The notes below the pieces were generated by a model, which was given only the letters and a program-made list of their open reading frames with translations, had not been told where the DNA came from and searched no databases. DNA of 24,935 nt from a virus. Within the stretch, counting starts at the first letter, position 1. Each line of letters starts with the position of its first letter. A program made the translations under genes and the position numbers. Positions 8,491-23,048 of this stretch are shown in pieces. The stretch spans positions 1 to 24,935 of the IMG/VR virus record IMGVR_UViG_3300043446_002305, one strand, 5' to 3'.

Positions 8491-8619
8491 GTTTGAACAA
8501 AAAGTGATACGAACAGGATAAACCCAAAGCGAAGAGAATGGAAGGTTTGGCGTCTCATCTTGTGACACTTGGGACGGATTCGGGGGTCTGAAGACTTTCT
8601 GGAGGATGGCGCGAAGGGC

Positions 8620-8647
8620 TTGTCAGCCCCGGAAATCTGGCTAATCT
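8620..8647 (+). promoter_or_regulatory. Early promoter of the replication operon
   Basis: TTGTCA (8620-8625), 16-nt spacer, TAATCT (8642-8647), in the 221-nt divergent region between the small terminase gene and the first plus-strand early gene. The hairpin at 8655-8669 begins 7 nt after the -10, as in the other early promoters. I see no convincing minus-strand promoter in the same region for the terminase genes. Confidence 0.55.
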
Positions 8648-8654
8648 TGTGCCC

Positions 8655-8669
8655 GCTAGCTTTGCTAGC
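8655..8669 (+). promoter_or_regulatory. Inverted repeat GCTAGC-TTT-GCTAGC at the 5' end of the early leader
   Basis: A perfect 6-bp inverted repeat with a 3-nt centre. It lies 7 nt after the proposed -10, so as RNA it would be a 5'-terminal hairpin, and as DNA a possible operator. The leader that follows ends in a C/A-rich stretch (CTAACCGCAAACA) before the ATG at 8712, without a Shine-Dalgarno. Confidence 0.5.
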
Positions 8670-8711
8670 AATTCCTTGCTCTCTGAAATTTTCTGCTACT
8701 AACCGCAAACA

Positions 8712-9311
8712 ATGGCTAAGGGTGTTTTTCTCCGATTACCGGATGATTTGGTTTATGACTTGGAGCGTTACAAGCCCAGAACCATGTCGCTGACTGGGTT
8801 TTGTGCCTATTTGATCGAGCTAGGGGTTGACAGGGACGTTACGCTGGCGGAGCGACCGAAGGGAAGCGAAGCCTCTTCTTCTTATTCTTCTTCTTCTATT
8901 AAAGAATTATCTTCTAATAATATTATTAGTACGGCTGTTAATTCTGCTAACGAAAAGCCGAAAAAGTCCAAGTCCCGTAAAAAACCGGAATATTCCGAGG
9001 AGTTCAACGAGTTCTGGAAGCTGTATCAGTCAGCCCCTGATCGCGTCTCATCTCAGACGAAACCCAAGGCCTACGACGAGTGGAAAGGCATTGTGGCGTT
9101 GGAAGGCCCGGAGACCCTCCTGAGAGCCGCTACAAGGGCGATTGAGGAGCAGAAGCGGAAGATGGCAGCCGGCGAGTTTGTGGGCAGCCTTCCTGACCTG
9201 TTTCGCTGGCTCCGCGACGGCAAGTACGAGGTCTATCTGGAGGAGCACCAGACGCAGAAGGCTGGGCGGACGTGGAGCGCCGATCTTGGCTGCTGGATTG
9301 AAAACGACTAA
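8712..9311 (+). CDS. Replication initiator / helicase-loader-like protein with RHH-like N-terminus
   Basis: A 199-residue protein. Residues 3-40 (FLRLPDDLVYDLERYK... GFCAYLIELGVD) look like a ribbon-helix-helix DNA-binding unit. Residues 48-75 are a Ser-rich linker and 78-92 a lysine-rich stretch. Residues 95-185 (FNEFWKLYQSAP, KPKAYDEWKGI, LPDLFRWLRDGKYEVY) resemble the C-terminal module of phage O/DnaT-type replication proteins, where a W-L...GK/R...W ending follows repeated helices. That module usually contacts the replicative helicase. It is the first gene of the early operon, and its linker is encoded by an AT-rich stretch containing a 16-bp palindrome, echoing lambda O with its internal origin. 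The function is inferred. Confidence 0.62.
   Translation: MAKGVFLRLPDDLVYDLERYKPRTMSLTGFCAYLIELGVDRDVTLAERPKGSEASSSYSSSSIKELSSNNIISTAVNSANEKPKKSKSRKKPEYSEEFNEFWKLYQSAPDRVSSQTKPKAYDEWKGIVALEGPETLLRAATRAIEEQKRKMAAGEFVGSLPDLFRWLRDGKYEVYLEEHQTQKAGRTWSADLGCWIEND
8870..8945 (+). other. Candidate replication origin: AT-rich tract with 16-bp palindrome inside a coding region
   Basis: Within the 199-aa gene, about 75 nt are strongly AT-rich against a ~53% G+C background: pyrimidine repeats (TCT/TTC), then a perfect palindrome CTAATAATATTATTAG at 8914-8929. The stretch encodes a Ser/Asn/Ile-rich linker, so protein constraint is low. Location inside a replication-protein gene parallels the lambda-type origin. 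I see no clear iterons, so the call is tentative. Confidence 0.4.
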
Positions 9312-12768: not shown

Positions 12769-12860
12769 TGACGGAGCCTGTTTGGTCTGTTGGGGTGCCA
12801 CTGGCCGTTGGGTTGCTGGGCGTGATGGTGCTGTTGGCATGGGTCGGGACACAGGATTGA
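12768..12860 (+). CDS. 30-aa single-span membrane protein
   Basis: MTEPVWSVGV, then a hydrophobic stretch (PLAVGLLGVMVLLAWV), then GTQD: one transmembrane helix. The start overlaps the exonuclease stop as ATGA, so it should be translated by coupling. Its stop overlaps the -35 of the next promoter. It is too short to detect by ordinary gene finding. Membrane role unknown. Confidence 0.6.
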   Translation: MTEPVWSVGVPLAVGLLGVMVLLAWVGTQD

Positions 12861-12886
12861 CAGCCCCTTGCCCTTAGGGGTATACT
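12857..12886 (+). promoter_or_regulatory. Early promoter with GGGGTATACTCC element (operon from 12910)
   Basis: TTGACA (12857-12862), 18-nt spacer, TATACT (12881-12886). The -10 is inside GGGGTATACTCC (12877-12888), the same element found in inverted orientation at 6809-6820. Confidence 0.82.
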
Positions 12887-15943: not shown

Positions 15944-16288
15944 ATGATCATCCTTACTGACGCCCAACTCGTTGAACTGACCAATCGGATCAATCAGATT
16001 CGTACCATCATTGACACCGCTCAGGTCATTAAAGCTTCCGCTGCACAGCCCAAAACCGTTACCGAGGCCGGCACCCAAACGCCTAAGCCAGTGGTTAGCA
16101 AGCAACGGCGAAAAGCTCGCACCCGTCGCGTCATGCTCAACGCCGCTCAGGTTGTAGAGATCAAACGGCGTCTGGCCGCTGGCAACGAATCAGCCGCAAA
16201 GATTGCTCGGGATTACGGCGTTCACGTCACCACGGTCAACCTGATCAAATATGGGAAGACGTGGAAGGAGGTTCAGGTTCCGGCCTGA
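15944..16288 (+). CDS. HTH protein with a shared DNA-binding module (114 aa)
   Basis: The N-terminus is a coiled helix (MIILTDAQLVELTNRINQIR), the centre a basic Ala/Pro-rich linker (KQRRKARTRRV), and the C-terminus an HTH (LNAAQVVEIKRRLAAGNESA, KIARDYGVHVTTVNLIKYGK, TWKEV). This C-terminal unit aligns by eye with the N-terminal HTH of the protein at 17254 (A-x-YGV...I-x-LI-x-x-G...W...V), a Hin/resolvase-type HTH. A transcription factor or DNA-binding role is inferred. Its 3' end overlaps the opposite-strand gene by 16 nt. Confidence 0.7.
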   Translation: MIILTDAQLVELTNRINQIRTIIDTAQVIKASAAQPKTVTEAGTQTPKPVVSKQRRKARTRRVMLNAAQVVEIKRRLAAGNESAAKIARDYGVHVTTVNLIKYGKTWKEVQVPA

Positions 16289-17078: not shown

Positions 17079-17254
17079 TCAAACTACGCCGCTTCTATTT
17101 TGAAATCCCAGAGGTCAACATCTACAACTGGGTAGATGCCTATGGCCCAACGGAAGCAAAGCAAATTGCCTTTGACGAATGGGGGCCTTACTACCGCTTC
17201 ATCAAATGGCGGCAACCAATGGAAGCCAAAGAGGTCAAACTTCCTGTCTTTTAA
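17075..17254 (+). CDS. Small hypothetical protein (59 aa)
   Basis: MIKLRRFYFEIPEVNIYNWV is followed by DAYGPTEAKQIAFDEW and RFIKWRQPMEAKEVKLP. Rich in aromatic and charged residues, a small alpha/beta fold. The start overlaps the previous stop (ATGA) and its stop overlaps the next start (TAATG), so it is part of a coupled run. Family unknown. Confidence 0.68.
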   Translation: MIKLRRFYFEIPEVNIYNWVDAYGPTEAKQIAFDEWGPYYRFIKWRQPMEAKEVKLPVF

Positions 17255-17613
17255 TGGCGCGAGTTAGGCAGACAAAGTTAACGCCTGCTGCTGTAACCCA
17301 TATTTTGCTGTCTACGGAGCCAAATTCCGTTATGGCCGCACAATACGGAGTAACACGGCAGGCGATTTCCTTGATTCGCAATGGCCGGAGCTGGGCTGAT
17401 GTCGCACCGGAACTTCCCCGAATTCCTGTTCGCGTCAAACAATCAATCCGCAAGGATTACATCAAACAATCCCAACACTGTTTTAACTGCTTTGAATACC
17501 AACAAGGTGAATGCGCCTTTGGCTTTCCTGAGGCCATAGATGAACCAACATTTGCCGCCATCTGCGATCTCTACAAACGAGATCCAAGCCGTTCTACAGC
17601 AGTGTCTAGCTGA
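17254..17613 (+). CDS. HTH plus Cys-FPEA module protein (119 aa)
   Basis: N-terminus (residues 8-50) is an HTH closely like that of the protein at 15944: KLTPAAVTHILLSTEP, then MAAQYGVTRQAISLIRNG and RSWADV. C-terminus: Cys76-x2-Cys79-x7-Cys87 followed by F-x-FPEA and Cys104-x-LY, probably a zinc site. The same Cys-FPEA pattern recurs in the protein at 18410. A DNA-binding regulator is inferred. The start at 17254 overlaps the previous stop (TAATG), which argues against the longer in-frame reading. Confidence 0.72.
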   Translation: MARVRQTKLTPAAVTHILLSTEPNSVMAAQYGVTRQAISLIRNGRSWADVAPELPRIPVRVKQSIRKDYIKQSQHCFNCFEYQQGECAFGFPEAIDEPTFAAICDLYKRDPSRSTAVSS

Positions 17614-17737
17614 ATACTGGGCGCCACGGTTCAACGAACTAACCATTGACCATTGCGCCCGTATGTACGCTGCACTGCAGCCGTTTATTCGCTATCAACA
17701 AGGCAACTGCCCGATAGCCAATGACCCCGCCAATTAA
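17540..17737 (+). CDS. Small hypothetical protein (65 aa)
   Basis: The protein begins MNQHLPPSAISTNEIQAVLQ and contains FNELTIDHCARMYAALQPFI. Its start lies 74 nt inside the preceding gene, which is a fairly long overlap and lowers confidence; it overlaps the next gene by 17 nt. Helical, no recognised family. Confidence 0.55.
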   Translation: MNQHLPPSAISTNEIQAVLQQCLAEYWAPRFNELTIDHCARMYAALQPFIRYQQGNCPIANDPAN

Positions 17738-17921
17738 GGCAACCCGTGAGTTCTACGACAGCCCAAGGCATTACTGCTACGGAGCTGATTGGGTCGGTTA
17801 CGGTGTTATGTCTGCCTTTCAGCCTTGGTGCTGGGATGGCACCGCCGTTTGGTACGGCCCTCTTTGTGACACCAGATCAGAAGCCCTTGCAATCGCCAAA
17901 AATCATGCTGACGCCTGTTGA
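17721..17921 (+). CDS. Small Tyr/Trp-rich protein (66 aa)
   Basis: MTPPIKATREFYDSPRHYCY is followed by GADWVGYGVMSAFQPWCWDG and TAVWYGPLCDTRSEALAIAK. The aromatic, Cys-containing composition suggests a small compact domain. It overlaps the genes on both sides by 17 nt. Function unknown. Confidence 0.62.
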   Translation: MTPPIKATREFYDSPRHYCYGADWVGYGVMSAFQPWCWDGTAVWYGPLCDTRSEALAIAKNHADAC

Positions 17922-18168
17922 ACTTGACCAGCGCCGTGCTGACTTCATGGAAATGCTGCACCAGCACTACCAAACCGAAAATTTGTTCACTGGACTTTGG
18001 GAACGTTTTGCCTATGACTCCGCCGTCAATCTTCGTGACCTGGATTACAACGTTTTGCGCTCTGACCTCATTCGTGCTTTTGGCAGTGCTGACAGTGAGC
18101 TGGCTGGCCGGTACGCTGATACTGCTATCGCCATTTTGATTAACCACATCCTTCCGCAACGGGGCTAA
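17905..18168 (+). CDS. Small helical protein (87 aa)
   Basis: I take ATG 17905 (MLTPVELDQRRADFMEMLHQ); the longer in-frame reading lies over the preceding gene. The protein is helical with a charged centre (FAYDSAVNLRDLDYNVLRSD) and a hydrophobic end (YADTAIAILINHILPQRG). Family not recognised. Confidence 0.68.
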   Translation: MLTPVELDQRRADFMEMLHQHYQTENLFTGLWERFAYDSAVNLRDLDYNVLRSDLIRAFGSADSELAGRYADTAIAILINHILPQRG

Positions 18169-18171
18169 GCC

Positions 18172-18408
18172 ATGGCAACAAAAGTTCCATTCCTCAACTG
18201 GTTTGAAAACTGGTGCTTCTACTACTTGGCACGTAGCCCTCGTGTTGGCACTATTCAAGTACGTTGGCGTTATACACCAGCTACATTTATCGTGCGCGAT
18301 CTGAATGATCCTTGCGTTGAAAAAGTGGGTGACGAGGAAATGACGCCGGCCTCATTTGACCTAGAGCGTATCTTCCATATGCCGTCTTACGGCGAAGCGG
18401 ACGAGTGA
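18172..18408 (+). CDS. Small hypothetical protein (78 aa)
   Basis: The protein begins MATKVPFLNWFENWCFYYLA and contains GTIQVRWRYTPATFIVRDLN and ERIFHMPSYGEADE. The N-terminus is aromatic and mildly hydrophobic, not a clear membrane span. A gap of 3 nt separates it from the preceding gene; no Shine-Dalgarno. Function unknown. Confidence 0.65.
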   Translation: MATKVPFLNWFENWCFYYLARSPRVGTIQVRWRYTPATFIVRDLNDPCVEKVGDEEMTPASFDLERIFHMPSYGEADE

Positions 18409-18409
18409 C

Positions 18410-18796
18410 GTGATTAACCTTTTCAACGGCAGGGTTGTTTTAGAACGGCGAACGCTTGTTGAAAATTGGCGTGCAAAAGTAAAACTCCCAAAACAGGGTG
18501 GAGCGCAAATAACGATTGACCTACAGACGACCGACTTAAAACTGGCCTTCGTCCGCGCTCAGAATATTTACAGATGCCTTAGAAAAGGCGAACCTTTGGC
18601 GGAATTAGACCCACCACCAACCAATCACCTTTCATGCTGGGATTGCGCTCACTGGTCTGTGTTGCGCGTGAACAATGGAGGCAATGGCTGTGAGTTCCAA
18701 TTCCCCGAGGCGCGCCAGACTGCATATGGCAAATTCGCATCTCAATGCCACCTTTACGACGATGGAACCCAGAATTCTGAGCAGGACCGACTTTGA
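18410..18796 (+). CDS. Arm-domain-like plus Cys-FPEA module protein (128 aa)
   Basis: Start GTG 18410. Residues 18-58 (WRAKVKLPKQGGAQITIDLQ, then TTDLKLAFVRAQNIYRCLR) recall the N-terminal 'arm' or AP2-like unit of tyrosine integrases (W.....G...I.L.T.D...A...A). The C-terminus has Cys76-x2-Cys79-x14-Cys94, then F-x-FPEA, and Cys113-x-LY, the same module as in the protein at 17254, fused to a different DNA-binding part. It lies in a small-gene operon. Function unknown; nucleic-acid binding inferred. Confidence 0.68.
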   Translation: MINLFNGRVVLERRTLVENWRAKVKLPKQGGAQITIDLQTTDLKLAFVRAQNIYRCLRKGEPLAELDPPPTNHLSCWDCAHWSVLRVNNGGNGCEFQFPEARQTAYGKFASQCHLYDDGTQNSEQDRL

Positions 18797-18947
18797 GGAC
18801 GGTAGCTACATCGAAACGCTAGAGCCAGTTCAAGGCGGTGAAATGTATTACCGCAGTTGTTACAAGGGAATGTGTAGATATTCCAGCGATCTTTGGCAGG
18901 CACAAATTTATTGCCACCAGATGACCAGTCCTAGTCTTCCCGAGTAA
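18762..18947 (+). CDS. Small hypothetical protein at the end of the early operon (61 aa)
   Basis: The protein is MEPRILSRTDFEDGSYIETL, then EPVQGGEMYYRSCYKGMCRY, then SSDLWQAQIYCHQM. Three Cys and many Tyr. Its start lies 35 nt inside the previous gene and its end overlaps the opposite-strand HNH gene by 17 nt. It reads like a real small protein, but support is only context. Confidence 0.58.
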   Translation: MEPRILSRTDFEDGSYIETLEPVQGGEMYYRSCYKGMCRYSSDLWQAQIYCHQMTSPSLPE

Positions 18948-19323
18948 TCCAATCCATAATTCTGGCTTCACCTATTTCTGACCAAAAAGGCAAACTTCTA
19001 TACCAAACTCGCCAATCTTTGTGCCCCTTAGACATATTGCAGCCGAAACAACACGCGACAAGATTGTTTAATTCACTGTTGCCACCTTTTGCTTTCGGCA
19101 CAACATGATCAAGTGTTGGCGATCTGCCTAGGGGTTCAAAACAATAGGCGCAATGGTAATTGAAGTGATTTAGAACAGCATCGCGGAACCTTCGTTTTGC
19201 TTCGTGCTTTGGTACAAGCTCTGAACCGTCGATGTGCTCAACCACCAGGCAACAGCTTGGTTCCTTAAACGGTAGCCACTGAAACTGAAATGTCTTACTA
19301 CGTGAAACTGCCTGACGGCACAC
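18931..19323 (-). CDS. HNH homing endonuclease
   Basis: A 130-residue protein, with the HNH core in the C-terminal half: HCAYC, then LDHVVPKAKGG (the DH motif), NLVACCFGCNMSKG (the second Cys pair and N/SKG). Upstream, VEHIDGSELVPKHEAKRRFR is a conserved part of a cyanophage HNH family I recognise. It would cut DNA at a defined site. The start is unclear: GTG at 19323 keeps the family-like WLPF segment, but its first codons overlap the opposite-strand gene at 19290; a GTG at 19245 is an alternative. It is convergent to the early operon and looks like a stand-alone selfish gene. Confidence 0.85.
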   Translation of the reverse strand: MCRQAVSRSKTFQFQWLPFKEPSCCLVVEHIDGSELVPKHEAKRRFRDAVLNHFNYHCAYCFEPLGRSPTLDHVVPKAKGGNSELNNLVACCFGCNMSKGHKDWRVWYRSLPFWSEIGEARIMDWITRED

Positions 19324-22154: not shown

Positions 22155-23048
22155 TCAAAGCACTGGCATTTCATACTCCGTGGTATTGGCTGCATAGTGC
22201 TTCCAGATCACCTGAGCCGTATTGCCAGCCCACGTTGCAGCCTGCGTAACGGGAATACCCGCCTCAAGCCAGCGACTAATCGCTACGTGCCGCAAATCGT
22301 AGGGCCGATACTTTTTCTGAATAAAGCCGGCTTCGTGTAACTGTTGCATTCGTTTGGCGAAAAAACTCTGGAATGCAAGCCGATTCCACGGAAACACATA
22401 TTCCGAATCCTGCGGCAACGCCTCCAATATTTCCTTGGCCCGAGCATTCAGTGGAACCCACCGCTTTTTGTTCGTCTTGGTGCTGTCTTTGTGGCCGTGG
22501 GTCAACGTGAAATTGCTATGCACCAATACCCGGTCTTCCTGAATGTCGCTCCATTTCATCGCCCGCACTTCGCCCGTTCGCATAGCCGTCTGCAGCATGA
22601 ACTCGGCAAACAATGACCAGTTGACCTTCTTATAAGCCAGCTTGCTTTCCAAAGCGACAAGCACCAGTGGAATTTCATTGCGCGGGATCACCACAATTTC
22701 GTGGTCACGTTGCGGTGCCTTTGGCATTCGGAAATTTGCCACCGGATTCTTCGGCAGCAAGGCCACATCTTCGGCAGCGGCCCATCTGTACAGACTGCGC
22801 GTATACATGCAGACCCGGCGGGCTGACGGCACGGGTTGCTGCTGCAACAGCCAAGTCAAGACCTTACGGCCTTCCTTAAAATTCTGAACAGGACAACGCC
22901 CAAGCCATTTCGTGACCTGCCTGTAGTCGCTGGTCAGACTGGTGGGGCAAAGGGCAACGCTGCGCTCGTCCACGAATAACTGCCAAGCCTCTGACAGTGT
23001 GTAATCGCAGGCGGGCGCAGGGGTTTCTACGCGATAGGATGGGTCCAT
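22155..23048 (-). CDS. int: Tyrosine recombinase / integrase
   Basis: A 297-residue protein. N-terminal core-binding domain (residues 15-110). Catalytic domain: Arg157 in TAMRTGEVRAMKW, Lys191 in DSTKTNKKRW, Arg253 in YRPYDLRHVAISRW, and Tyr285 in WKHYAAN. Two usual His positions differ: Tyr250 replaces the first His of HxxR, and Asn276 (AGN) lies where LGH is typical. It would join phage and host att sites. The gene lies in the late-strand cluster between lysis and fibre genes. Start ATG 23048. Confidence 0.9.
   Translation of the reverse strand: MDPSYRVETPAPACDYTLSEAWQLFVDERSVALCPTSLTSDYRQVTKWLGRCPVQNFKEGRKVLTWLLQQQPVPSARRVCMYTRSLYRWAAAEDVALLPKNPVANFRMPKAPQRDHEIVVIPRNEIPLVLVALESKLAYKKVNWSLFAEFMLQTAMRTGEVRAMKWSDIQEDRVLVHSNFTLTHGHKDSTKTNKKRWVPLNARAKEILEALPQDSEYVFPWNRLAFQSFFAKRMQQLHEAGFIQKKYRPYDLRHVAISRWLEAGIPVTQAATWAGNTAQVIWKHYAANTTEYEMPVL

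Follow-up and report, generated by a model that had tools for sequence, protein, structure and literature searches.

Phage late regulators such as lambda Q, RinA and ArpU are encoded at the end of the early operon, and the two small proteins described here, A and B, have a similar genome position, with no sequence relationship seen. Other described systems resemble their individual parts. The HTH of A is related to that of phage HNH endonucleases (phrog_59), but A is without an HNH nuclease motif. The N-terminal domain of B has a predicted βββα topology like that of AP2 and integrase arm-type domains, without a match to their sequence families. The C-terminal module that A and B share has its cysteines in the same order as HiPIPs and HiPIP-like subunits (PF01355; MASS-β/γ, BSS-β, HPAD-γ), with aromatic residues after the second and fourth cysteines, but it differs from them in the lack of profile similarity, in having no G-[YW]-C before the last cysteine and FPE(A) after the third, and in being fused to DNA-binding parts and found in phages only. 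HiPIP-fold [4Fe-4S] subunits follow the pattern C-x2-C-xn-C-xn-C with a lone fourth cysteine (for example, Cys32/35/51/86 of MASS-β) and may share no sequence similarity (PMC12358834).

Some module proteins, L107 and S-LBS1 A39 among them, carry the NrdR N-terminal zinc ribbon (PF22811) at their own N-terminus; this ribbon is a separate CxxC...CxxC domain, distinct from the FPEA module, and A and B are without it. Gene A39 of Synechococcus phage S-LBS1 (ATS93211, hypothetical) combines an A-type HTH with the module at 30% identity to A, from which it differs in the extra N-terminal zinc ribbon; no B partner was found for it.

The locus and its conserved neighbourhood

The window, by which we mean the whole stretch of DNA analysed, is 24,935 bases long and comes from an IMG/VR record. 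By the closest relatives of its terminase and capsid it belongs to a cyanosiphovirus, Cyanophage KBS-S-2A being the closest match for both (59% and 76% identity, respectively). A rightward operon begins at 8712, carries RusA-like and Sak-like recombination genes, and has A, B and F2 as its last genes; the leftward genes comprise terminase, portal and capsid on one side, and endolysin, dCTP deaminase and HNH on the other. A and B thus close what looks like an early operon, opposite the late genes. The features referred to below are the following.

15944–16288, + strand: upstream HTH protein without the module, its HTH related to that of A (relatives retrieved by the A N-terminal profile)
17254–17613, + strand: protein A (119 aa), in which an HTH is followed by a C-terminal Cys4-FPEA module (38 aligned relatives)
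17284–17409, + strand: HTH of A, residues 11–52 (AF2, phrog_59, HTH_3)
17479–17574, + strand: Cys4-FPEA module of A (C76–Y107)
17746–18168, + strand: F3, ORF lying between A and B (kept at 31 of the 40 loci compared)
18172–18408, + strand: F4, ORF of 78 aa immediately preceding B (kept at 31 of the 40 loci compared)
18410–18796, + strand: protein B (128 aa, starting with GTG), in which a predicted βββα arm is followed by a C-terminal Cys4-FPEA module (32 aligned relatives)
18410–18589, + strand: βββα (AP2/integrase-arm-like) domain of B, residues 1–60 (AF2 pLDDT about 77–87)
18635–18757, + strand: Cys4-FPEA module of B (C76–Y116)
18763–18947, + strand: F2, downstream of B and overlapping it, closing the rightward operon, start codon presumed (kept at 32 of the 40 loci compared)
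18931–19323, − strand: F1, small HNH endonuclease whose gene converges on the end of the operon (PF14279, 5.3e-10; phrog_2214, 1.3e-23)
22155–23048: integrase gene

A and the ORF before it overlap at the latter's stop (TAATG, 17252–17256), and B starts just after the stop of the ORF before it; given these junctions and a gene order conserved in dozens of contigs, both genes look real. An HTH-type and an arm-type module protein occur together in 29 of the 50 viral records searched whole, always in the same order, on one strand and 1.1–1.7 kb apart. F3, F4, F2 and the convergent HNH gene are likewise kept across phage groups, and the HNH gene also stands convergent beside A in several phages in which A but no B was found (L086, L089, L090 and L095). 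At five loci where B was found and A was not (L100, L105, L108, L113 and L122), a short HTH-only ORF lies upstream of B. These phages also keep the HTH protein of 15944–16288, at a distance of roughly 1 kb upstream of A.

A cysteine module common to two otherwise different proteins

The earlier note had reported a C-terminal motif, C-x2-C-x7/14-C-x-F-x-FPEA-x9/11-C-x-L-Y, in both proteins, and the translations of 17254–17613 and 18410–18796 reproduce it exactly in sequence, position and spacing. In A it reads CFNC-FEYQQGE(7)-C-AFG-FPEA-IDEPTFAAI(9)-C-DLY (C76, C79, C87, F91–A94 and C104), and in B CWDC-AHWSVLRVNNGGNG(14)-C-EFQ-FPEA-RQTAYGKFASQ(11)-C-HLY (C76, C79, C94, F98–A101 and C113). The direct BLASTP match between A and B is marginal (E=0.002 over 23 residues). 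Whole-protein profiles of the two families (38 A-type and 32 B-type relatives) match each other in the module region and nowhere else (97.8%, E=1e-12), and a profile–profile comparison of the cut-out modules reaches 98.5% (E=2.5e-15). On this profile evidence the two modules are homologous and the N-terminal parts unrelated, which agrees with the note's view of one module in two otherwise unrelated proteins.

All 38 A-type and all 32 B-type aligned sequences keep the four cysteines and FPE without exception, but they had been selected with a cysteine pattern. When relatives of B were found by their N-terminus alone, 53 of 54 distinct sequences had the full module and the 54th was cut by a contig end, a result that speaks to the ORFs rather than to sampling, as the search ran on fetched viral loci, some of them fetched by module patterns. 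Variation of the cysteines among homologues, named in the note as the outcome that would undo its proposal, was thus not what these relatives revealed. The corresponding search with the N-terminus of A recovered the module in 49 of 85 cases and also brings in other HTH proteins, the ORFs without the module being the protein at 15944–16288 and its relatives, the HNH endonucleases L052 and L053, and HTH-only ORFs.

No family match over the module was obtained in Pfam, NCBIfam, PHROG or PDB, in keeping with the note, which did not recognise a named domain and took a hit to a known zinc-finger family as refuting its proposal, and the assignment of the module to any known zinc-finger, PHROG, NCBIfam or PDB family is therefore rejected. 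Nothing convincing came from named zinc-finger profiles over the module, where zf-RING_UBOX scored 0.051 in two of the 32 B-type members. The module is a real, unnamed domain. AF2 models it with low confidence in both A and B (pLDDT about 40–60), which we count against the explanation favoured below; Foldseek searches with the two models gave E above 0.3 throughout, and fold searches were informative for the N-termini only.

The N-terminal parts of A and B

For A, AF2 predicts confident helices at residues 11–42 (pLDDT about 83), and the HTH profile matches together with the tri-helical fold place it among HTH proteins. The more specific label of a resolvase-like HTH is refined, the nearest family being the HTH of phage HNH endonucleases: phrog_59 is matched by 28 of the 38 A relatives, and the HTH of A is 47% identical to L052, an HNH endonuclease with a related HTH. 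Pfam HTH_3 is matched by 10 of the 38 (best 7.4e-5).

The N-terminus of B, which had been described as an integrase-arm-like unit, is predicted to be a βββα domain, with AP2 domains among its best structural neighbours: the VIA rows include 6sy0 (Z 4.9) and 1gcc (Z 4.6), both AP2 and both weak. No sequence-family profile matched this domain, and with Z below 5 an AP2-like identity for the modelled fold is a weak lead only.

Distribution and architectures of the module

Two pattern scans of viral contigs gave at least 199 readable places and at least 144 distinct ORFs; among the matches listed, the fourth cysteine lies in range at all but two of the 199 places. The module is found at the C-terminus behind an HTH, behind a zinc ribbon plus HTH, behind a zinc ribbon alone, in short CxxC-CxxC proteins and behind a βββα arm, front-end classes that are approximate, having been assigned through simple regular expressions and visual inspection. 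A domain left blank in current libraries is hereby defined in well over a hundred viral proteins, and the short motif C-x2-C-x6-14-C-x3-FP[ED]...C can serve to find candidate DNA-binding regulators in uncultured cyanophages. One large class (L325, L387, L389, L391 and others) consists of proteins of roughly 90 aa with CxxC-CxxC and the module ending LCSAREVDSLLE; tblastn found no isolate relative of this class.

The NrdR-type zinc ribbon PF22811 is matched above cut-off by L107 (2.4e-11) and below it by S-LBS1 A39 (4.7e-4). A zinc ribbon is encoded by a gene of its own near A and B in one phage group, whereas a second group has a related ribbon joined to the HTH-module protein. Since the stand-alone and fused ribbons are related (best BLAST 7e-8, profile 6.9e-8), the ribbon and the HTH-module parts may well work together.

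Seven query proteins searched by tblastn against 50,697 phage records located the module in Synechococcus phage S-LBS1 only, and the other matches that were opened had no module; S-SRP02, with its NrdR annotation, and S-CRES2, with a zinc ribbon, were rejected as carriers, as both have the ribbon only. S-LBS1 and Synechococcus TCC793 form a cultured phage–host pair in which metal content and function become testable.

Searching 84,980 bacterial and archaeal species for CS[FY]GFPEA yielded 18 stretches with no relative among them, and C-x2-C-x7-C-x3-FPEA in genome collections yielded 116, of which the readable ones were judged by sequence to be chance occurrences, mostly short frames without the remaining motif, some with a later cysteine. 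Profile searches of 386 cyanobacterial genomes returned partial or unrelated matches only. With no genuine copy for the motifs tried or in these genomes, a cellular origin of the module is rejected, and the module appears to be restricted to viruses within the particular motifs and the 386 cyanobacterial genomes searched.

Another unannotated four-cysteine motif, CxxC..GEC..AP..WCGE[WF], is present in S-H1 (L270) and in viral contigs (L273–L280), standing at the end of a longer frame in L273–L279. A relationship between the FPEA module and the S-H1 form, CDSC..GEC..AP..WCGEW, was not supported (hhalign 18.6%).

The putative metal site

The invariance of the four cysteines argues for a metal site, and the module very probably binds a metal. 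The ligand pattern fits both zinc, which the note had suggested, and an iron–sulphur centre; we take zinc to be only slightly the likelier of the two.

The strongest alternative to the explanation favoured below takes the module to be a HiPIP-like [4Fe-4S] mini-domain and A and B to be redox-responsive regulators. It would account for the ligand order, which in the module is C-x2-C-xn-C-xn-C with an isolated fourth cysteine, and for the aromatic residues three positions after the second and fourth cysteines in every A- and B-family module and in 7 of 7 HiPIPs examined, although for the latter position the search patterns already demanded a hydrophobic or aromatic residue. Several other module classes, however, have no aromatic residue there (LCSAREVD, for example), the modules do not match PF01355 in Pfam at E up to 10, and hhalign against HiPIPs gives only 12.5% over 11 columns. 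The PROSITE-like HiPIP signature C-x(6,9)-[LIVM]-x3-G-[YW]-C-x2-[FYW] is absent from all 70 modules; of eight control sequences, which included one non-HiPIP protein, it is present in four. With profile and signature both lacking, HiPIP membership by sequence is rejected, and we consider a HiPIP-like module possible but rather unlikely. The bolder proposal that a virus-restricted HiPIP-like [4Fe-4S] tail, placed on many DNA-binding heads, lets cyanophages time the early-to-late switch by redox sensing is improbable; if true, cyanophages would read the redox state of their photosynthetic host through this tail.

Possible roles of A and B

The explanation that we favour, held tentatively and as a whole falling somewhat short of probable, is that the module serves phage DNA-binding regulators as a docking tail, one that binds metal through its four cysteines (Cys4) and is restricted to viruses. 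A and B would be small DNA-binding regulators produced from the end of the cyanosiphovirus early operon, each reading DNA with a different N-terminal part, an HTH in A and a βββα arm in B. The module would most likely fold around one metal centre, either zinc or a HiPIP-like [4Fe-4S] cluster, and would act as a shared docking or oligomerization element, joining A to B or linking the two to a common partner, for instance RNA polymerase; this docking would switch transcription between early and late. The note's proposal that the module recruits one target to different DNA may hold in this setting. Its strong parts are that the searches made placed the module in viral proteins only, that the front ends are of nucleic-acid-binding types and that the two-protein cassette is conserved, whereas the docking role and late-gene control are what we infer, the latter by analogy with other late regulators from genome position. 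We count in favour of a regulatory role the homology of the modules, the invariance of their cysteines, the A–B pairing, the swapping of front ends and the location at the early/late junction, and we count against it the HNH-endonuclease type of A's HTH together with the adjoining HNH gene.

Sigma factors provide a further comparison. Sigma-70 region 2 was detected in none of 29 metagenomic module-bearing records but in 3 of 5 related isolates that lack the module (Fisher p=0.006). We count this contrast in favour of a regulatory role, but it was conceived after the neighbourhood was seen and involves few, related and possibly incomplete records. The isolates with a sigma factor and no module are KBS-S-2A, S-CBS1 and S-CBS3; S-LBS1 has both. 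S-H1 and MED4-184 have neither, which counts against a regulatory role. In KBS-S-2A the sigma factor adjoins an HNH gene of the same type as that of the window.

A and B may instead target the host, for takeover or anti-defence, with the module as the part that binds a host protein. Small size, early expression position and viral restriction in the searches made would suit such a role, but the recognisable front ends of module proteins are of nucleic-acid-binding types, and we regard it as improbable. Scarcely different in probability is a split homing or packaging endonuclease, in which A and B would recognise DNA and the convergent HNH protein would cut it. The relationship of A's HTH to the HTH tails of the HNH endonucleases L052 and L053 points this way, as does the presence of the HNH gene at 35 of the 40 loci compared, several of which yielded A but no B; against it, the same HNH type occurs without A or B in KBS-S-2A, S-CBS1 and S-CBS3, and in the window it lies on the strand opposite to A and B, alongside the late genes. 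That B is an excisionase or integration accessory protein, as its arm-like N-terminus and the integrase gene of the window might suggest, is very improbable, and an integrase partnership is rejected, since a tyrosine integrase is present in no more than 8 of the 29 IMG/VR records tested, several of those without one are 38–49 kb long, and the module of B is also found on HTH proteins.

Searching upstream of terS for an operator turned up a promoter-like element that is conserved but shows no connection to A or B. The element, a TTGNCA-N15/16-gcTAnnnT-like sequence in the divergent region between terS and the early gene (8569–8711), is shared by the majority of 19 related phages; the window's copy of this region also holds the inverted repeat GCTAGC-TTT-GCTAGC. 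Within the rightward operon, a promoter-like TTGACA-N18-TATACT with 11 of 12 matches is located at 12857–12886.
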